Shown here one piece after another: positions 5,800-51,912 of a stretch of DNA of 64,000 nt. Source of the stretch: Ignavibacteriales bacterium (GTDB lineage Bacteria; Bacteroidota; Ignavibacteria; UBA10030; SZUA-254); assembly GCA_016214905.1 (NCBI GenBank), contig JACRMQ010000007.1, positions 460,408 to 524,407 on the forward strand, written 5' to 3'. The position numbers and the translations under genes are program-made. The notes beneath the pieces were generated by a model that saw only the letters and a list, made by a program, of their open reading frames with translations, had not been told where the DNA came from and did no database searches. Position 1 is the stretch's first letter; every line of letters begins with the position of its first letter.

Positions 5800-8643
5800 G
5801 TGTCTCGTTTTAATAAATATGCTCTGATCACAGTTCTGTTTTTTACTTCCGCCCACCCGCAATTTTCATACTTCGGCAGAAATAAAGTACAGTATACTGC
5901 GTTCGATTGGCATTTACTGAAAACCGATCACTTCGATATTTATTATTATCCAGAGATGAAAGATTTAGCCGAGCGTGGAGCATTTCTTGCCGAAGAAAGT
6001 TACAAAATTCTGCAAGAAAAATTTGTTTATAATGTTCCCTCACGCATTCCTCTCATATTTTACAGCACTCATTTACACTTTCAGCAGACAAATACGACAC
6101 AGGGGTTAATTCCAGAAGGAGTCGGAGGATTTTTTGAGTTTCTTAAAGGAAGAGTCGTGATTCCTTATACCGGCTCGATGTGGGATTTTAAACATGTAAT
6201 TCGGCACGAGCTTGTACATGTTTTTATGCACGGAAAGATCAGCCGCATATTTTCAAATCACAGAATCGCTCAAGACCGGTTGCCGCCGCTTTGGTTTGTA
6301 GAGGGATTGGCTGAATACTGGTCGATTGATTGGGACACTCAGGCAGAAATGGTTCTTCGAGACGCAACAATTTCAGGATATGTTACTCCGTTAAGTTCAA
6401 TTGAGCAGATTTACGGTTCATACTTGATGTATAAAGAAGGTCAAAGCATACTCCGCTTTATCGGTAAACATTACGGAGAAAATAAGATTCTGTTGTTATT
6501 GGAAAACTTTTGGCAGTCGAACAGTTTTCAAGATGTTTTCAAGTCGACAATCGGAGTTAACTTCGAAGAGTTCGATGAAGAATGGATATACGCGCTGAAA
6601 AAAGAATACTACCCTCTGTTGAAAAATTTCGATTCACCGAGCGGTGCAAGCGAAATTTTGGTGCAAAAAGGATTTAATACCAAACCGGTGTATTGGGAGA
6701 AAAACGAGAACCGGCAAATTTATTTTGTTGGAAATCATTCAGGTTATGCGAGCATTTACAAAATAAATATCGATAGCGCACTGGTAAATCATGAAACCAT
6801 GCCGGAACTTGTTGTGGAAGGAGAACGCTCCGAGGAATTCGAGGCATTCCATCCGTTCCAAAACAGACTGGCGATTTCTAAAAAAGGAATACTGGCTTTC
6901 GTTACAAAAAAAGGTGAGAAAGACGCTTTACATCTTTTTGATATTGTTGAAGGAAAAAGCATTAAAACATTTGTTTTTAAAGATCTCGTCGTTTTAGGAT
7001 CAGCATCTTGGTCACCCGATGGAGATAAGATTGTATTCAGCGCAATCGACATGTCCGGTTCGGATGATTTGTACATTTGGAATATCGAAACAGAATATTT
7101 GGAACGGCTAACTAATGATTTTTATGACGATCGTGATCCTGAATGGTCGCCCGATGGTTCGACCGTACTATTTGCATCAGATAGATCTGAGAACGGAGAA
7201 TCGGGAAAATACAATCTCTTCAAGTATCAATTAAACACTAACGATATTTATTATTTAACGCAGGAGAATTTTAATTTTTCATCCCCTCGATACTCATCCG
7301 ACGATAAATTTATATTGTTCACAGCAGATATAGATGGTGCTCGGAACATATGGATGATGCGCAACGACGAACAAATAGATGGTCAGAAAATGCATAAAGT
7401 TTCATCCTTCACCACGGGTGCTTTCGATCCTGCCTGGGCTGACAGTAATTTGATATTTGTGGCGTTTGAAGATTTCAACTTTCGCATCAGAATGGTTGAG
7501 AATATTTCTAACTTATATGATTCATCAAAAGAAATATCAACCGCCGAATTTAAAATTGAAAAACCATGGAGACCCCAAACAATTGGTGGCATGGCAGAAT
7601 CAAAACCGCTTAAATATGCAGAAGATTATACGCTGGATGTTGCTCAAAGTCAAATTGCCACCGATCCTGTTTTCGGAACGTGGGGCGGAGCATATTTATC
7701 AATGAGCGATTTATTGGGCAACGAACAATATAATTTTCTGGTTTACAATACAGCTCAAACTATGGATGAGCTGATGTCGAGTTTCAACATCGCCATCTCA
7801 CGTGTATCGCTTCACCGACGAACTAATCATGCATTCGGTATATACCGTTTCAGCGGGAGGAGATATGATCTCACAGATCCCGATCTGTATTTCTACGAAA
7901 AAGTTTTCGGTGGTTACTATGCCCTCAGTTATCCATTCTCAAAATTCAAACGGTTGTCTTTATCGACAAGCATCAGCCATTCAGAGAAAGATGCATATTT
8001 TGGAACAGTCTATGAAAGATATACTGAGGGCATCGATTATTCACGGCGGGCATTATTTCTTTCAAATTCAATTTCATTCACTCACGATAATTCGCTTTGG
8101 GGTCCAAGTGGTCCGCTGGACGGTAGCCGTTACAGTGCAACGCTTGCGTACACTTCCGATATTCAATATTCACACGCGAATTATTTCTCTGTGATATTGG
8201 ATTATCGGCATTATTTTAGAATCGGTAATATGTCGGCTTATGCCATGCGATACTGGTTGTTCTATAATGATGGTCAGGAGGCGCGGCGATTTTTTATGGG
8301 CGGCAGTTGGGATTTACGCGGATATCCCAGATGGTCGTTGCGGGGGAAAAAAATATGGGTAACAAGTCATGAACTTCGTTTTCCATTTCTTGATGAAGTG
8401 CGGTTGCGGTTTCCGTTCACAAATATTTCTTTTTTCGGAATTCGCGGAGCTCTCTTTTGCGATGCCGGCAACGCATGGGATAATTTTTACGGTACAACGT
8501 TGGGAAGTATTGGCGGAGGCGTAAGGATTAACCTTGGTAATTTGATTGTGCTTAGATATGATATAGGTAAACGGATTGAAAATAATTTTAAAAACTTTCA
8601 ATCGAGATTATTCTATCAATTTTTCTTCGGGTGGGATTTCTGA
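5800..8643 (+). CDS. outer-membrane fusion: gluzincin-type protease, TolB-like propeller and D15 beta-barrel
   Basis: A 947-residue envelope protein with three parts. After a signal peptide (GTG start; hydrophobic ALITVLFFTSA) comes a peptidase-MA-like domain with the zinc motif HELVH at 136-140 and a downstream glutamate in FVEGLAEYW (Glu168). Next is a TolB/WD40-like propeller, with ASWSPDGDKIVFSA near 402, EWSPDGSTVLFAS near 447 and further degenerate blades. The last 250 residues look like a D15/BamA-family barrel (GSWDLRGYPRW, LFCDAGNAW) ending in the aromatic outer-membrane signature FFGWDF. It presumably sits in the outer membrane with protease and propeller in the periplasm. It heads a three-gene operon. 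Substrate unknown. Confidence 0.85.
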   Translation: MSRFNKYALITVLFFTSAHPQFSYFGRNKVQYTAFDWHLLKTDHFDIYYYPEMKDLAERGAFLAEESYKILQEKFVYNVPSRIPLIFYSTHLHFQQTNTTQGLIPEGVGGFFEFLKGRVVIPYTGSMWDFKHVIRHELVHVFMHGKISRIFSNHRIAQDRLPPLWFVEGLAEYWSIDWDTQAEMVLRDATISGYVTPLSSIEQIYGSYLMYKEGQSILRFIGKHYGENKILLLLENFWQSNSFQDVFKSTIGVNFEEFDEEWIYALKKEYYPLLKNFDSPSGASEILVQKGFNTKPVYWEKNENRQIYFVGNHSGYASIYKINIDSALVNHETMPELVVEGERSEEFEAFHPFQNRLAISKKGILAFVTKKGEKDALHLFDIVEGKSIKTFVFKDLVVLGSASWSPDGDKIVFSAIDMSGSDDLYIWNIETEYLERLTNDFYDDRDPEWSPDGSTVLFASDRSENGESGKYNLFKYQLNTNDIYYLTQENFNFSSPRYSSDDKFILFTADIDGARNIWMMRNDEQIDGQKMHKVSSFTTGAFDPAWADSNLIFVAFEDFNFRIRMVENISNLYDSSKEISTAEFKIEKPWRPQTIGGMAESKPLKYAEDYTLDVAQSQIATDPVFGTWGGAYLSMSDLLGNEQYNFLVYNTAQTMDELMSSFNIAISRVSLHRRTNHAFGIYRFSGRRYDLTDPDLYFYEKVFGGYYALSYPFSKFKRLSLSTSISHSEKDAYFGTVYERYTEGIDYSRRALFLSNSISFTHDNSLWGPSGPLDGSRYSATLAYTSDIQYSHANYFSVILDYRHYFRIGNMSAYAMRYWLFYNDGQEARRFFMGGSWDLRGYPRWSLRGKKIWVTSHELRFPFLDEVRLRFPFTNISFFGIRGALFCDAGNAWDNFYGTTLGSIGGGVRINLGNLIVLRYDIGKRIENNFKNFQSRLFYQFFFGWDF

Positions 8644-9794
8644 TGAAATATTCTATCACATTTATATCCATTTTTCTCTCCGTTTTATTGGGATGCAATA
8701 AATTGATTTTGCGTCAACCGGTAATTTCTGATGTCAAAGATTGGAAGGTATTTGCCGGGTCAAAAAACAGATTAAATTTTACGGATGAAGAATTGAAGCC
8801 GCCGTTAGTTAAAGCATGGGAATATGATGCTTCCGCGGGCTTCGGCCAGTTCGGTGTAACAATTAATGGGAATATTATCTGTGTGGGAAATCTACGGGGT
8901 GAAGTTCATCTTGTAGATAAAATCAACGGTAAAGGATTGGGGATGAAAGATTTCGGAACAGCGATTTATTCTCCACCGATTCTCGATGACAACATTTTAT
9001 TCATAGCGCTCTCGGATGATAAGGAAAATTTATTTGCTTACGATCTTACCCGTGGATCAATTATATGGAAAAAATCTGTTGGCAGAATCGAATCGGCTAT
9101 TTTGCTTTTGAATAATAAAATAATTGTAAATACAATTGATAACGGTTTACTTTCTATAGATAAAAATGATGCTACTGTTATTTGGAAATTCCCACAAACA
9201 AATAGTCGCATCCGAACAAAGAGTCATTCTTCACCAGCCGCCTCAGGCGAAACAATTGTTTACGGAAATGATGACGGATTAATAGTCGCTCTCAATTCGC
9301 AAAACGGATCTGTTTGTTGGCAAAAACAGGTTGGTGGTAGTTTAATTGCTGCTCCTTCAATTCGCGATTATTCTGTTTTCATTGGAACTTTAGAAGGTCG
9401 GGTAGTCTCATTAGAATTAGCAACAGGCGATATTCTATGGTCGACTGAGGTTGGTGGTAAAATATATTCTTCATTCGCCTTAACCAATGCATCGATATTT
9501 GTTGTTACATCGAAGAATGAGATGTTGTGCCTAAATAAAAATAGTGGTGATATTATTTGGCGGACTTTGCTGGATGGAGTTCTCGGTTCTTCTCCGCTTT
9601 TAGCGGGGAATATTTTGTATGTTGGTTCATTCGATAAAAATCTTTACGCCATTGAATCAACTTCTGGGAAAGTTATTTGGAAATTTAAAGCTGATGGACG
9701 TGTTGTTTCTTCACCCGTGTTAAACAATGGTTTACTGTATATATTAATCGATGATAATTCATTAATCGCTCTTCGAAGAGGAGATGATAAATGA
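8643..9794 (+). CDS. PQQ-like beta-propeller lipoprotein (BamB-like)
   Basis: Start placed at the ATG overlapping the previous stop by one base; a GTG 12 bases earlier is less likely because the ATG gives a cleaner lipoprotein signal (LSVLLGC, Cys18 as the lipidation site). The mature protein consists of repeated blades with W-K and LY/LFA(Y/I) motifs such as LYAIESTSGKVIWKF and VSLELATGDILWS, the PQQ-propeller pattern also found in BamB. The coupling to an upstream D15-barrel protein suggests a role in outer-membrane protein handling, but this is inferred from position. No enzyme active site is visible. Confidence 0.83.
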   Translation: MKYSITFISIFLSVLLGCNKLILRQPVISDVKDWKVFAGSKNRLNFTDEELKPPLVKAWEYDASAGFGQFGVTINGNIICVGNLRGEVHLVDKINGKGLGMKDFGTAIYSPPILDDNILFIALSDDKENLFAYDLTRGSIIWKKSVGRIESAILLLNNKIIVNTIDNGLLSIDKNDATVIWKFPQTNSRIRTKSHSSPAASGETIVYGNDDGLIVALNSQNGSVCWQKQVGGSLIAAPSIRDYSVFIGTLEGRVVSLELATGDILWSTEVGGKIYSSFALTNASIFVVTSKNEMLCLNKNSGDIIWRTLLDGVLGSSPLLAGNILYVGSFDKNLYAIESTSGKVIWKFKADGRVVSSPVLNNGLLYILIDDNSLIALRRGDDK

Positions 9795-10573
9795 AAAATC
9801 TTTTCTTAATTTTATCCTCCACATTCATTATGATTGGCATGTCGTTCGGGCAAGCCGATAGTTTGAATGAACCTCGGCGGGTTCATTCTACTCTTTCGGT
9901 TAATTTAGATTACTCTCAGCTCAAAATATATGTCGATTCAACTTTCATAGGAGTTACTCCGATAGATTCTGCAATCGTTGCAAGCGGTACTCATAAAATA
10001 ACAGCCGCTACATTTCATTCTTCTCAGTGGAATAATGTGGTTTACGAAGAAACAATTGATATCCCTTTAAATAGCCATGTTAATAAGTATATCTTCATAT
10101 CGAAACCAATAAAAATATTCACCGAACCGTTCAATGCCGCGGTTTACAAAAATGATTTGTTGGTTGGAAGAACACCGATGACAATTGGTGAGTGGGAGAA
10201 AGACATGAAAATAAAATTAACTTTGAATGGATATCGCGACAGCACAATTTCCATCGTAACCAACGAGTTTTTGCCGAAAATATTTTTACAACAATTAACT
10301 CCTCCAGATGGCAAAAGTAATCCGATTTTTTTAGATTCAGACGGAACCGATAAATTATTACCGGTTTATATCGCCGGCGGCACGGCAATAGTCAGCGGAG
10401 TTACCGCTGCATACTATAAAATTCAAGCCGATAAGTTCTATAAAGAATACCGGTCATCTAAAAATAACCAATTGCTTGATCGCGTAAAACGATTTGATAC
10501 CGTTTCTGGTATTTCCCTTGCAGTTTCGCAGGTTTCTATCGCAATTTTATCATATTTATTATTCAGTCAGTGA
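9791..10573 (+). CDS. PEGA-domain envelope protein
   Basis: A 260-residue protein with an N-terminal signal peptide (LFLILSSTFIMIGMSFGQA) and two PEGA-type modules: YVDSTFIGVTPIDSAIVASG near residue 50 and FNAAVYKNDLLVGRTPM near 115. PEGA domains are small surface beta-sandwiches of unclear role. Near the C terminus there are hydrophobic stretches (VYIAGGTAIVSGVTAAYY and a final LAVSQVSIAILSYLLF) that may anchor it. It overlaps the propeller lipoprotein by 4 bases (ATGA), completing the operon with the protease/barrel fusion. Function not known. Confidence 0.75.
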   Translation: MKNLFLILSSTFIMIGMSFGQADSLNEPRRVHSTLSVNLDYSQLKIYVDSTFIGVTPIDSAIVASGTHKITAATFHSSQWNNVVYEETIDIPLNSHVNKYIFISKPIKIFTEPFNAAVYKNDLLVGRTPMTIGEWEKDMKIKLTLNGYRDSTISIVTNEFLPKIFLQQLTPPDGKSNPIFLDSDGTDKLLPVYIAGGTAIVSGVTAAYYKIQADKFYKEYRSSKNNQLLDRVKRFDTVSGISLAVSQVSIAILSYLLFSQ

Positions 10574-12333: not shown

Positions 12334-12813
12334 ATGCCAAACATCATTGAAGGAACTCTTTCTGCAGCTCAATTTAAATTCGGAATCGTCGTAAGCAGAT
12401 TTAACGACTTTATCACAAATCGATTGCTCGATTCGGCAATCGATTGTATCGTAAGGCACGGTGGGCAGGAGAAATCGGTCGATGTTATCTTGTGCCCCGG
12501 TGCGTTTGAAATTCCGCAGGTTGCGCAAAAAGTAGCTCAAAGCGGAAAATACGATGCGATTATTTGCCTCGGATGTGTTATTCAAGGAGACACTCCCCAC
12601 TTCGAATACATTGCCAATACTGTAAGTGTTGGAATTAATCGTGTAGCGCTTGAAGAGCAATTACCTATTGTATTCGGCGTGCTTACAACCGATTCTCTCG
12701 AACAGGCAATTGAGCGCGCAGGAACAAAAGCTGGAAACAAAGGATGGGATGCCGCGATTGCCGCCATCGAACTGGCTGATCTGCAGAAGAAATTTTCGAA
12801 TAAGAAAAAATAA
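12334..12813 (+). CDS. ribH: 6,7-dimethyl-8-ribityllumazine synthase
   Basis: Condenses the pyrimidine 5-amino-6-ribitylaminouracil with 3,4-dihydroxy-2-butanone 4-phosphate in the penultimate step of riboflavin synthesis; forms an icosahedral or pentameric shell. The 159-residue length is standard. The motifs [17 protein letters not shown] and the [13 protein letters not shown] segment with the catalytic histidine are all present. No other rib gene and no FMN riboswitch was seen nearby, so this gene stands apart from any riboflavin operon. The following propeller gene starts 17 bases later. Confidence 0.95.
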
Positions 12814-12829
12814 TTATCTTATTCCGATA

Positions 12830-15112
12830 ATGCGCTCAATTTATTTGCTACTCTGTTTTCTGAGCATCGGCTTTTTTTCATCTTCTTTATTCAGCGGGGT
12901 GGGTGATTGGAAATCTTACACATCAAAACGTGAAGTACGTGCCATCGCTTCCAGGCATTCCGATATTATCTGGGCTGCAACAAGCGGTGGCATGTTCTCG
13001 TTTAGATTTTCCGATAGCTCGTACATCGAATTTACTCCTACCGAAGGATTGCGAACATTAGATCTGACTGCCATAACACTGGATAAGGATGATAACATTT
13101 GGATAGGTGGGGCGGACGGATATATACAACGGTACACACCATCAACAGGCGAGTGGATTAATATAACAGATATTTTTTTAGATAAAGATCACGGGCCCAG
13201 CAAGCGTATTAATAAATTTCTCATCAAAGGTGACACACTTTTTATACTATCCGATATCGGTGTAAGCTTTTACTCCCTCTCAAATCTTGAATTCGGTGAC
13301 ACTTTTTTAAGGTTCGGATCGTCTCCGAATGTTATTAGCGGTGGAGTTACCGGTCTGGAGATTTACAACGACACCATATGGATTGCAACACGAACCGGAA
13401 TAGCATCCACTTATTCGTCTAATCCGAATCCTTCGGCGCCCGACGGATGGCGAATTTACAATCAAAGTAACGGTTTAGCTTCAACCGTAATTAACGATCT
13501 TACGCAAGCCGCTGGTAACCTTATTGCGGCAACTGCGAATGGAATCAGTCGGTGGACCGGTTCTTCTTGGAACACTGTTCCGGGAACGGAGAATAAAAAT
13601 ATTCTTGATATTACAGTCGATAAATTGGCTGACGAAAACGACGTGCAATATTTCTTCATAACCCCGCAAGAATTATGGAGAGTGCTCAACAATAATGCGG
13701 TTCTCCGGGATACTCAATTTTATGTTACACTTTCAAGTATCGAATCTTCAGTAATAATCGGCACTGATAAAAGTGGTGTGCTCATTCGAAATTCTTCTCC
13801 ATCACCCGAAAGAATGTGGATGAATATTTTACCGCCGGGTCCGTTTACAAATAACTTTGTCAGTATAGTTATCGACGAATCAGGTACGCTCTGGTCAGCA
13901 ACAGGGAAAACCTACGGCGAGGGATTTATGAGTTATGACGGTTTAAAATGGAGGTCGTATAATGCCGCTACCGACTCAAATCTTTGTTCCAACGATTATT
14001 ATAAAGTGAGTTTAGGAAAAGACAATTCGAAATGGATGAGTAATTGGGGTTGCGGTGTAACTGTAATTGACGGTAATGGAAGCGTGCAAAAAACTTTTAA
14101 CACTACAAACGGACTCCCACCTACGTTAGATAATAATTTGCAATATATAGTCGTAGGCGGTGTTGCTGTTGATCAACGAGGAACAACTTGGATTACAAAC
14201 AGAACAGCTCCCGATAGTACCGCGGTTGTTTTATTGAAAGCCGATTCGACGCTGGATTATCATGTTAAACGGAGTATGCGAAGTCCGTTAACAATTTTCA
14301 TCGATATTGTGATTGATCAAAATGATACCAAATGGTTTGCGAACACCAGCCGATTCGATCATGAAATAGCTCAAGGATTGTTCTATTACAACGATAAAAG
14401 TGTAGCTCCCGGGATTTCCTCGGGGTGGGGTAGAATGACATCCGATGACGGTTTGACAAGTTACCAGGTATGGTCTCTTGCTGTTGATAATAACGGTGAA
14501 TTATGGATCGGCTCGGATCAGGGGATTACAATTGTCTTCAATCCCGCAGATCCCATTCGAACTGTTGCAACCTATCATCCATTGCGTGAGCAAATTATTC
14601 AGGCAATTTTAGTCGATGCATGCAACAATAAATGGGTGGCAACAAAACAAGGAGTTTTTGTTTTATCACCCGATGGAACATCGATACTCGAAAGATACAC
14701 AACAGAGAACACTGATCGGAAACTATTGGATAACGATATTACATCAATTGCGTGGAATAAATCTACCGGTACTATGTACCTTGGTACCGAGAAAGGTCTT
14801 TCAACGCTGTCAACACCGTATTTAGCACCAAAAGCTGCGTTTGATGAATTAGTTTTTAAACCGAATCCGTTTATTGTTCCTTCAACAACTCCTCTTACGG
14901 TAGACGGGTTGATCTATGCATCTTCCATTAAAATATTAACGATCAGCGGTGATCTGGTTAAGAATGTTTCATGTCCATGCGGACGTGTTGGCTTTTGGGA
15001 TGGGACTAATGAATCGGGTGAACCGGTTGCAACAGGTGTTTATCTTGTAATTTCATACGGTGAGGATGGAACAAAGACAGCGATTGGTAAGTTGGCGGTT
15101 TTGCACAGATAA
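12830..15112 (+). CDS. secreted two-component-regulator-type propeller protein with C-terminal sorting/FlgD-like domain
   Basis: A 760-residue protein starting at the ATG at 12830, where a clear signal peptide begins (SIYLLLCFLSIGFFSSSLF); the open frame extends upstream into ribH but that part is not credible. The body contains many blades of the Reg_prop kind (DNIWIGGADGYI, GELWIGSDQGI, NKWVATKQGVFV, TMYLGTEKGLS). The last 80 residues (FKPNPFIVPSTT...GEPVATGVYLV) match FlgD-like/T9SS-type C-terminal domains, suggesting export and surface display. It lacks any kinase part. Function unknown; similar in design to the protein at 28062. Confidence 0.82.
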   Translation: MRSIYLLLCFLSIGFFSSSLFSGVGDWKSYTSKREVRAIASRHSDIIWAATSGGMFSFRFSDSSYIEFTPTEGLRTLDLTAITLDKDDNIWIGGADGYIQRYTPSTGEWINITDIFLDKDHGPSKRINKFLIKGDTLFILSDIGVSFYSLSNLEFGDTFLRFGSSPNVISGGVTGLEIYNDTIWIATRTGIASTYSSNPNPSAPDGWRIYNQSNGLASTVINDLTQAAGNLIAATANGISRWTGSSWNTVPGTENKNILDITVDKLADENDVQYFFITPQELWRVLNNNAVLRDTQFYVTLSSIESSVIIGTDKSGVLIRNSSPSPERMWMNILPPGPFTNNFVSIVIDESGTLWSATGKTYGEGFMSYDGLKWRSYNAATDSNLCSNDYYKVSLGKDNSKWMSNWGCGVTVIDGNGSVQKTFNTTNGLPPTLDNNLQYIVVGGVAVDQRGTTWITNRTAPDSTAVVLLKADSTLDYHVKRSMRSPLTIFIDIVIDQNDTKWFANTSRFDHEIAQGLFYYNDKSVAPGISSGWGRMTSDDGLTSYQVWSLAVDNNGELWIGSDQGITIVFNPADPIRTVATYHPLREQIIQAILVDACNNKWVATKQGVFVLSPDGTSILERYTTENTDRKLLDNDITSIAWNKSTGTMYLGTEKGLSTLSTPYLAPKAAFDELVFKPNPFIVPSTTPLTVDGLIYASSIKILTISGDLVKNVSCPCGRVGFWDGTNESGEPVATGVYLVISYGEDGTKTAIGKLAVLHR

Positions 15113-22735: not shown

Positions 22736-24070
22736 GTGAAAATTATTTTTTGTTTTCTTTTCGTTCTTCCGTATTTATTTCTTCCCTTGAACGCGAAACC
22801 ATCGGTTTCGGTTCAAGATTCATCATCGGGATTGATAGATTCGGTTTTTGTCGTGGATTCCATTATGATCGTCGGGAATACCTCAACGAAAGATTTTGTC
22901 ATCAAGCGTGAAATGTCGTTACAGCCAGGTTCTGTAATCGTAAAGGAGTTGCTTCAATACGATCAAAGCCGGATATACAGTCTCGGTTTATTCAATCAGG
23001 TATCTATTTATGTTCAACCGACAACTGATAACAAAGCCAATCTGATTATCGAAGTAAGCGAGCGCTGGTTTGTTTTTCCATTTCCGGTAATCGGCATAAA
23101 AGACAGAGATTGGAAAAAACTATATTACGGTGCCGGACTTTTGCATTCGAACTTTCGGGGAAGGAACGAAAAATTATATGCGATGTTTGTTCTCGGATAC
23201 GATCCTTCCGGAGAAATATGGTATCGCAATCCTTTTTTAAGCGGCGATGGTTCATATTCGCTCGACGCGAAAATCGCTTACAGTAAAATCAAAAACAAAA
23301 GTGTCTCGGCGCAACTTGCCGGAAATAATTTTACCGAGCAGCATATCTATACAACACTCGGATTGGGTAAACGCTTCGGAGTTCACCACATGCTTTGGTT
23401 AACCGGGGGATTTGAATATGTCGGTGTTTCTGAATTTAAACAGGGAAGAACGATCTCTGAAAAAGGGATAGATCGGTTTCCGTTTCTAGGCGCAAGTTAT
23501 ACATACGATACACGCGATCTCATTGAATACCCGTCGAGCGGTACGTTCACGCGTTTTGCAGTTACAAAATTCGGACTGCCTTCCTCGGATTTAGATCTGG
23601 TGAGATACGCAACCGATCTTCGGCAATTTATACCGCTTCGATCTAATTTCAGCATCAGCGGCCGGTTGTTCACCAATTTTGTTGCGGGTAGCAGCACACC
23701 AAGTTATAACCGTGTTTACTTCGGATATACCGAACGTATCAGAGGACATTTTAAGGAAGTTACCGAAGGAGAAAATCTTTTTGGACTTTCCACCGAACTG
23801 CATTATCAATTGTTCGAGCCGGTATTTATTCAGATGAAATTTCTCCCGTCTGAATTCAGTATACTTAAATTCGGAATGGTTGCCGCTGCGTTCGGCGATG
23901 CGGGAACGGTTTGGTTTCGCGGTAAACGATTTGCGCTGAATAATTTTAAACGCGGCTATGGTATTGGTTTGCATTTCTTGCTTCCGTACAGTATGATCTT
24001 GCGAGCCGATTATGCATGGAATGAATCGCGCCGGGGTGAATTCATTTTCGATCTCGGTTCCTCATTTTGA
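22736..24070 (+). CDS. D15/BamA-family outer-membrane protein with one POTRA-like domain
   Basis: A GTG at 22736 gives a classic signal peptide (KIIFCFLFVLPYLFLPLNA); a TTG further upstream overlapping the previous gene is less likely. Residues about 35-110 form one POTRA-like unit (DSIMIVGNTSTKDFVIKRE ... LFNQVSIYV). The remaining 330 residues look like a 16-strand D15 barrel with FPFLGASYTYDTRD, FFGYTERIRGH-like YFGYTERIRGH, and FGDAGTVWF, ending in Phe. True BamA has several POTRA domains and is about twice this size, so this is a relative (TpsB/TamA-like or an FCB-specific assembly factor). Confidence 0.85.
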   Translation: MKIIFCFLFVLPYLFLPLNAKPSVSVQDSSSGLIDSVFVVDSIMIVGNTSTKDFVIKREMSLQPGSVIVKELLQYDQSRIYSLGLFNQVSIYVQPTTDNKANLIIEVSERWFVFPFPVIGIKDRDWKKLYYGAGLLHSNFRGRNEKLYAMFVLGYDPSGEIWYRNPFLSGDGSYSLDAKIAYSKIKNKSVSAQLAGNNFTEQHIYTTLGLGKRFGVHHMLWLTGGFEYVGVSEFKQGRTISEKGIDRFPFLGASYTYDTRDLIEYPSSGTFTRFAVTKFGLPSSDLDLVRYATDLRQFIPLRSNFSISGRLFTNFVAGSSTPSYNRVYFGYTERIRGHFKEVTEGENLFGLSTELHYQLFEPVFIQMKFLPSEFSILKFGMVAAAFGDAGTVWFRGKRFALNNFKRGYGIGLHFLLPYSMILRADYAWNESRRGEFIFDLGSSF

Positions 24071-50677: not shown

Positions 50678-51912
50678 ACTATTACGGAATTATTGTTCTA
50701 ATTGCTCTGGTTGGAGAGTATGTTATAGATTTAACAGCCGATCTACTGAATCTGAAAACGCTCCGGGGAGAACTTGATGATGAGTTTAGATCTGTATACG
50801 ATAATCAAACATATTCGAAATCGCTCTCGTACACACGTGATAAAACGAATTTCGGAATAATACAATCATCTTTTAATCTGGTGATAACGTTGTTGTTCTG
50901 GCTGTTAGGCGGCTTTCAATATCTTGATGTTATTATCAGAGATTTTCAACTCTCGATTATTATGACCGGAATATTGTATATCGGTGTTTTCATTCTACTT
51001 CGATCCATCCTCTCATTACCATTCGAGATATATTCCACTTTTATAATCGAATCACGGTACGGATTCAACAAGACAACCGTAAAAACATTTATAACGGATA
51101 TTATTAAGACTTTGTTTCTTGCACTTTTGCTTGGAGTGCCGTTGTTATTTGGTATGTTGTCATTATTCCAATATGCGGGGATGTATGCGTGGTTGTATTG
51201 CTGGATGGCTGTATCCGTTTTTATTCTTATCGTTCAATTTATCGCTCCGACATGGATCATGCCTCTGTTTAATAAATTCACTCCGCTTCCCGATGGTGAA
51301 TTACGGAGCTCGATAATGGAATACACAAAATCTCTTAACTATCCCTTAAAAGATATTTTTGTTATGGATGGTTCGAAGCGCTCCAGTAAGTCGAATGCGT
51401 TCTTCACCGGTTTCGGAAAAAATAAACGCATCGCTCTTTATGACACACTTATCGAAAAACACACCATTCCAGAACTTGTTGCAGTTCTTGCGCACGAAAT
51501 AGGACATTATAAATTAAAACATATCCTCAAAGGAATGATCATTAGCGTTATTCATTCTGGAGTGATGTTTTTCCTCCTGTCATTTTTTCTAAATGATAAT
51601 AAATTATTCGAAGCATTTTATATGCAGAATATTTCCGTGTATGGCGGATTATTGTTTTTCGGCTTATTGTTCACACCGATAGAATTGCTGCTCGGTATCT
51701 TTCTGCAATATGATTCGCGTCGAAATGAATTTTCCGCGGATAAATTCGCATCGGCGACGACAAATAATCCGGAAGCGATGATAAATGCTCTGAAAAAACT
51801 TTCGGCAGATAATCTTTCTCATCTCATGCCGCATCCGTTTTATGTGTTTCTACATTATTCACATCCTCCGGTATTGAAACGAATAGCCGCACTTCGCCGT
51901 ATAAGCAATTGA
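50674..51912 (+). CDS. M48-family membrane metalloprotease (Ste24/CAAX protease-like)
   Basis: A 412-residue multi-pass membrane protease. The zinc site is HEIGH (His274, Glu275, His278) in LAHEIGHYKLKH with the third ligand Glu352 or nearby in RRNEFSADKFA. The long N-terminal multi-helix part (YSKSLSYTRDKTNFG, FIIESRYGFNKTT) is typical of the CAAX-protease 1 branch rather than the shorter HtpX. Bacterial members are thought to degrade membrane proteins; prenylated substrates are not expected. It overlaps truA (ATGA) and precedes lemA. Confidence 0.92.
   Translation: MNYYGIIVLIALVGEYVIDLTADLLNLKTLRGELDDEFRSVYDNQTYSKSLSYTRDKTNFGIIQSSFNLVITLLFWLLGGFQYLDVIIRDFQLSIIMTGILYIGVFILLRSILSLPFEIYSTFIIESRYGFNKTTVKTFITDIIKTLFLALLLGVPLLFGMLSLFQYAGMYAWLYCWMAVSVFILIVQFIAPTWIMPLFNKFTPLPDGELRSSIMEYTKSLNYPLKDIFVMDGSKRSSKSNAFFTGFGKNKRIALYDTLIEKHTIPELVAVLAHEIGHYKLKHILKGMIISVIHSGVMFFLLSFFLNDNKLFEAFYMQNISVYGGLLFFGLLFTPIELLLGIFLQYDSRRNEFSADKFASATTNNPEAMINALKKLSADNLSHLMPHPFYVFLHYSHPPVLKRIAALRRISN

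Follow-up and report, generated by a model that had tools for sequence, protein, structure and literature searches.

The 64,000-nucleotide stretch analysed here (the window; positions 460,408 to 524,407 of contig JACRMQ010000007.1, assembly GCA_016214905.1) comes from an Ignavibacteriales bacterium, a member of the Bacteroidota in the wide sense of GTDB. Near its start lies a plus-strand run of three genes. The first, gene A (5800..8643), is a single open frame with a GTG start at 5800 and a TGA stop at 8641-8643, and encodes a chain of 947 residues in which a zinc peptidase, a TolB-like propeller and an Omp85 barrel are fused. The second (8643..9794) encodes a propeller lipoprotein resembling BamB, and the third (9791..10573) a PEGA protein. 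The stop codon of gene A overlaps the BamB-like start codon by one base (TGATG), the BamB-like stop and the PEGA start overlap as ATGA, and from these overlaps we infer that the three genes are probably co-translated. In related bacteria, too, the fusion is usually encoded beside a BamB-like gene, and this points to a machine for protein handling at the outer membrane that has yet to be characterised.

Following a signal peptide, recognised by eye, the gene A protein begins with the zinc peptidase domain (residues 22-280; 5863..6639), within which Peptidase_MA_2 (PF13485, cut-off 32.4 bits) matches residues 134-265 with 34.9 bits when the full-length protein is scanned and with 37.8 bits when the domain is scanned in isolation. 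The propeller (residues 281-574; 6640..7521) is matched in the full-length scan by PD40 (PF07676; 57.4 bits, cut-off 20.9). The barrel (residues 600-947; 7597..8640), which carries the sequence LRGY at 839-842, is matched by the Omp85 family PF01103 with 40.3 bits (cut-off 24) when scanned alone; PF01103 is not listed in the full-length scan, a genome search finds it in the gene A frame with 39.2 bits, and it matches the barrel part in all seven sequences of alignment A3. With the three families over their cut-offs, the preliminary description of a zinc protease, a TolB-like propeller and a D15-type barrel in one chain is borne out. POTRA is absent from the Pfam matches of the full-length protein, and TPR families are absent at E values up to 1. 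In a scan of named genomes, which gave six loci, the nearest named relative is a metagenome-assembled genome labelled Chlorobiaceae bacterium (89% identical), and the five others carry the labels Ignavibacteria, Ignavibacteriaceae or Chlorobi.

Structures of the window protein were predicted with AlphaFold2 from seven sequences, those of the six named loci and the window. The full-length model has a mean predicted local distance difference test score (pLDDT) of 50.9, and its peptidase and propeller blocks lie mostly at 52-90, with residues 91-120 weak at 27-48. The closest fold to the propeller is TolB (1c5k; Z 25.5, root-mean-square deviation 2.5, 242 residues aligned, 21% identity), and the first match not titled TolB has a Z of 20.7. 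That search, made with the full-length model, probed essentially the propeller, so that the peptidase fold lies outside the comparison. Folding the barrel alone yields 15 strands at least nine residues long, with any confidence confined to one model out of five; the fold search with this best model, itself of middling confidence, gives BamA 8xnb as the closest match (Z 21.1, root-mean-square deviation 4.0, 312 aligned). Among the 50 entries listed, 49 titles name the β-barrel assembly machinery (BAM) or BamA, the sorting and assembly machinery (SAM) or CdiB; the title of 5ayw says only ‘a membrane complex’. Since the model matches BAM, SAM and CdiB entries, the possibility raised earlier that the C-terminal 250 residues have no barrel fold is not borne out. 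The barrel occupies about 348 residues (600-947) rather than 250. Its RG motif is close to invariant, with R840 found in 36 of 36 aligned sequences and G841 in 35.

Is the peptidase likely to be active? The active-site alignment comprised the window protein and 35 orthologues (L009-L043). The HELVH motif (residues 136-140; 6205..6219, plus strand, like the residues that follow) supplies two zinc histidines and the catalytic glutamate, E168 (6301..6303), within EGLAEY, the third zinc ligand, and Y211 (6430..6432), within MYKEGQ, a candidate transition-state tyrosine; in its YxxG setting it may play the part that such a tyrosine has in M1-type peptidases. H136, E137, H140, E168, E172, Y211 and G214 are identical in all 36 sequences. 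Two paralogues in the same genome, B and C, both keep H136, E137, H140, E168, Y211 and G214, and in C E172 is replaced by Gln and R840 by Lys. The zinc ligands H136, H140 and E168 are thus the same in every orthologue aligned and in both paralogues, and a lack of conservation, which the preliminary description had named as a ground for doubt, is not seen. Positions invariant among the 36 sequences number 59 of 259 in the peptidase, 17 of 320 in the propeller and 77 of 347 in the barrel; conservation is concentrated in the peptidase and the barrel, and is far lower in the propeller.

The peptidase had been called BepA-like, and in this respect the preliminary description needs correction. Among 12 orthologues, at E values up to 1, Peptidase_MA_2 is matched by all 12, M61 weakly by 11, M9 by ten and M1 by one; the likeness to these last three families goes no further in the window protein, which is below the cut-off for M61 (14.4 bits against 22) and M9 (17.1 against 26), and for which M1 is not listed at E up to 1. 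M48 (PF01435), the BepA family, is not among the nine families matched by gene A orthologues at E up to 1. For solved relatives of the peptidase, a profile search against the PDB that admitted E values as high as 10 returned one sequence, a collagenase (E 0.059). An M48 search of the genome finds three genes, none of them gene A, which by eye are presumably a membrane protein of the CAAX type, an HtpX-type protein and a LoiP-type lipoprotein; a scan confirms the M48 domain of the last. These family matches rule out the BepA-like assignment, and with no M48 match in gene A and M48 genes elsewhere, the term applies only broadly, in the sense of an envelope zinc peptidase. The M48 search gives a match of 133.4 bits at window positions 51286-51903, in a 413-residue frame that looks like a membrane protein and, by eye, like the CAAX type.

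The second gene of the run is, as had been proposed, a BamB-like propeller lipoprotein. Its product of 383 residues has a lipobox cysteine at position 18, invariant in all 13 aligned BamB-like proteins, and matches PF13360 (PQQ_2/BamB) with 154.9 bits (cut-off 27.6). The BamB model TIGR03300 gives 229.1 bits, under the equivalog cut-off of 285.2, and matches all 13 aligned proteins at E up to 0.001. The PEGA protein, of 260 residues with two PEGA stretches, matches PF08308 with 36.6 bits (cut-off 20.8) and has hydrophobic stretches, by hydropathy, at its start and near residues 189-207 and 235-259; its homology is judged from single-sequence matches, and it is the weakest-supported partner.

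The pairing of gene A with the BamB-like gene recurs widely. The survey of gene A covered 296 genomes with two candidates scored per genome, and ‘not found’ in it means not among the two best. Among the matches listed, clear orthologues are present in 39 of the 73 genomes of the class, counting the bacterium’s own, and outside the class in another 31. A profile of 13 BamB-like sequences (A2), built partly from genomes later searched with it, was run against the 73 class genomes and 54 chosen genomes of other classes, 31 with gene A and 23 without; for the class genomes the best E value per genome is complete and positions come from the matches listed. The counts that follow are raw tallies by genome, with kinship ignored. 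A BamB-like gene is found in all 70 genomes with gene A, in 68 by the genome search and in two, G006 (E 1.9e-9) and G001 (E 4e-4), by local search only, where it is weakly seen in just the stretch beside gene A. The two genes adjoin in 66 of the 70. Within the class the BamB-like gene immediately follows gene A, in the same orientation, in 35 of 39 genomes (among the matches listed), and outside the class the two are neighbours in 31 of 31, comprising 28 clear cases, one (G096) in pieces, and G006 and G001 through the local search. A full-length match (at least 290 of 382 positions) occurs in one of the 57 genomes without detected gene A, by the genome search and with no local check there; in the other 56 there is either no match or only a partial one to some other propeller protein. 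Both states occur in four families of the class, and in these none of the seven genomes without gene A (G009, G035, G078, G120, G156, G259 and G294) has a full-length match. Closer views agree: the BamB-like gene is downstream of gene A in 28 of 35 loci with short flanks (L009-L043), and of 20 chosen larger neighbourhoods with gene A, 15 hold all three genes, 16 the BamB-like gene and 16 the PEGA gene. Two of the named loci show the arrangement, L013 with all three genes and L014 with gene A and the BamB-like gene. Because the active site and the gene order recur in many genomes, the fusion is more than chance.

Across the genome PF01103 is found in nine places, eight of them over the cut-off, gene A among them. 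A canonical BamA, with four POTRA stretches and Omp85, lies in another locus than gene A, beside genes that, by eye, we take to be UppS, OmpH/Skp and Lpx genes. There is also a patatin-Omp85 protein (L048). PQQ_2 gives only two matches in the genome, both inside the BamB-like gene next to gene A. Peptidase_MA_2 and PD40 are combined in three proteins, A, B (1064 residues, contig C3) and C (1030 residues, contig C9), and the Omp85 match is over the cut-off in A and B and below it in C.

How does the gene A protein compare with known systems? Heinz and Lithgow defined in 2014 a WD40-Omp85 subfamily whose propeller is closest to TolB (PMC4104836), and like that subfamily as described there, gene A has a TolB-closest propeller before an Omp85 barrel and no POTRA. 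In both its barrel and its propeller in place of POTRA, the architecture of gene A fits the subfamily. Unlike the subfamily as described, gene A encodes a zinc peptidase at the N-terminus and is accompanied by a BamB-like partner encoded separately; the word ‘peptidase’ is not in the main text of that paper, and its supplementary tables might show one (PMC4104836). The partner resembles BamB in being a propeller lipoprotein that matches TIGR03300, and differs in falling under the equivalog cut-off and in having a gene that accompanies gene A, not BamA. A possible confusion concerns PF00149, a metallophosphoesterase family. This other family, not Peptidase_MA_2, defines the 2014 group named ‘Metallo’ or ‘Omp85-metalloprotease’ (PMC4104836), and the label ‘metalloprotease’ is repeated for it in a later paper (PMC11116518). 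With PlpD, a patatin-Omp85 protein, gene A shares an enzyme domain N-terminal to the barrel; PlpD, as described, has a patatin-like enzyme and POTRA and no propeller (PMC11116518). Gene A would resemble BepA in encoding an envelope zinc peptidase whose motif is HExxH plus Glu, and it differs in that BepA is an M48 protein with TPR and gene A is a Peptidase_MA_2 protein fused to a propeller and a barrel (PMC8423444).

In open-access literature, judged by titles and the starts of abstracts, no functional study of a peptidase-propeller-Omp85 fusion surfaced, and among the open-access papers searched the phrase WD40-Omp85 or its variants occurs only in the 2014 paper. WD40-like Omp85 proteins were counted in 2024 among subfamilies that are not well characterised and are intriguing targets (PMC11116518), and a 2025 study of BAM in Bacteroidota calls it unclear whether BamB occurs in any member of that phylum (PMC12578637). 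The locus touches both questions: at least part of the WD40-Omp85 group would carry a catalytic domain, and a BamB-like lipoprotein accompanies gene A, not BamA. As far as our literature searches go, what is new is the conserved site and the catalytic domain that holds it, the correction of the peptidase family and the close association with a lipoprotein resembling BamB. The locus gives a so far unassigned subfamily an enzyme and a partner that are open to experiment.

The domain make-up, the conserved active-site residues, the lipobox and the conserved gene pairing are the observations to be explained. We think it most likely, with about an even chance of being right, that the gene A product is an outer-membrane-anchored periplasmic peptidase that works with the BamB-like lipoprotein and trims or removes envelope proteins. 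The C-terminal Omp85 barrel would anchor the chain in the outer membrane and hold the TolB-like propeller and an active zinc peptidase on the periplasmic side, where the partner would be the BamB-like lipoprotein from the adjoining gene, often joined by the PEGA protein. The two propellers may serve as docking or gating surfaces, and the unit would trim or remove proteins at the outer membrane while facing the periplasm. In the Omp85 proteins that have been studied the N-terminal domains are on the periplasmic side, as experiment showed for PlpD (PMC11116518); together with the barrel anchor, this would place the peptidase in the periplasm beside the lipoprotein. Peptidase activity, the periplasmic side and a physical complex are thus presumed from comparison, and a link of the gene A product to BAM, as drawn in the preliminary description, is an inference only. 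Possibly, and as a more tentative proposal, many relatives, Ignavibacteria among them, have a second outer-membrane complex, dedicated to handling proteins and equipped with a protease of its own, in which a POTRA-less Omp85 protein has its propeller and a BamB-family lipoprotein as a periplasmic platform. The BamB-like protein would belong there, not to BAM, and if this is true both proteins would be gained and lost together.

Several results weigh against a barrel-anchored peptidase that works with the BamB-like lipoprotein. The full-length model forms no barrel, with residues 573-947 below a pLDDT of 50, and the barrel folded alone is of middling quality (pLDDT 53.6, predicted TM-score 0.53), the other four models having pLDDT 28.8-29.5. 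The two genes are apart in four of the 70 genomes, all in the class (four of its 39: G039, G176, G255 and G267); in G176 and G267 the detached BamB-like gene adjoins a PEGA-like gene. In one genome, G280, the single case among the 57, no gene A adjoins the BamB-like and PEGA genes, and in four named loci (L009-L012) only gene A, and no BamB-like gene, lies within the flanking stretch examined, whole genomes not being searched in that comparison. Because the genome search misses divergent copies, such as those beside gene A in G001 and G006, and local checks were made only where gene A is present, the contrast of 70 of 70 with one of 57 somewhat overstates the association, and family f19, where both states occur, allows no judgement of it. 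Finally, 11 of the 13 BamB-like proteins also match pyrroloquinoline quinone (PQQ) alcohol dehydrogenases, so that the descent may not be from BamB itself. A 2012 survey of BAM lipoproteins, which covers proteobacteria, warns that its BamB model also catches dehydrogenases (PMC3359395).

Could the protein instead perform quality control on BAM, as BepA does? It would dock on BamA and degrade stalled outer-membrane proteins, with the BamB-like lipoprotein as a bridge to BamA. We find this doubtful, as the peptidase is of Peptidase_MA_2 and not M48, the BamB-like gene keeps company with gene A and not with the BamA locus, and a separate M48 protein of LoiP-like look exists. It gains from the BamB-like protein being the sole PQQ_2 protein found in the genome, from the binding of E. 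coli BamB to BamA (PMC13067283) and from the action of BepA on BAM (PMC8423444). Another view makes the barrel a specialised insertase or translocase that works for a few clients as in BamA or TamA, the propeller and the BamB-like protein replacing POTRA and the peptidase processing the client. The Omp85 fold and RG motif suit this view, and Heinz and Lithgow likened WD40-Omp85 to a BamA-BamB fusion (PMC4104836); it is unlikely all the same, as the full-length scan has no POTRA match and the authors of the PlpD work interpret that protein as an Omp85 scaffold put to a new function (PMC11116518).

A surface protease, whose peptidase domain would reach the outside of the cell by way of the barrel or next to it, as was at one time suggested for PlpD, seems highly improbable to us. 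A surface role was proposed in 2014 for other enzyme-Omp85 fusions (PMC4104836), but PlpD was later shown to retain its enzyme domain in the periplasm (PMC11116518), and in gene A a large propeller stands between peptidase and barrel and the partner resembles the periplasm-facing BamB. There remains a non-catalytic scaffold, in which a structural zinc site would belong to a protein that links the outer membrane, the BamB-like lipoprotein and the PEGA protein. Propellers commonly serve as docking folds, and a substrate of the gene A product has yet to be named; the catalytic Glu137 and Tyr211 are, however, as invariant as the zinc ligands, and we regard a scaffold as very unlikely.

Some further observations concern the paralogues and neighbouring genes. 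Paralogue B (L002:226-3417) is 35% identical to A over residues 11-614 and is not adjoined by the genome’s only PQQ_2 protein; proteins of B-like length and similarity to A are found, among the matches listed, in many genomes of the phylum without detected A. Paralogue C (L091:7051-10140) is preceded, a few genes upstream and on its own strand, by a C25 peptidase bearing a FlgD_ig-type tail (L091:2-1735) and by a PorV protein (L091:1770-3026), so a connection of one paralogue with type IX secretion is possible. Two genomes belonging to one genus have the BamB-like gene away from gene A (L085:6454-7800 and L086:6082-7227), and the gene that follows it in both looks like a lipid A acyltransferase gene. 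In the window itself, positions 23150-24067 give a PF01103 match of 57.6 bits in a 458-residue frame, a further short Omp85 protein whose N-terminal part is, by eye, maybe a single POTRA. A long frame at 12650-15112 overlaps the end of ribH, and a 752-residue frame after ribH is also found in L081 and L083; the tail of the window frame looks like a FlgD-like sorting domain, and the protein is possibly PorZ-like.

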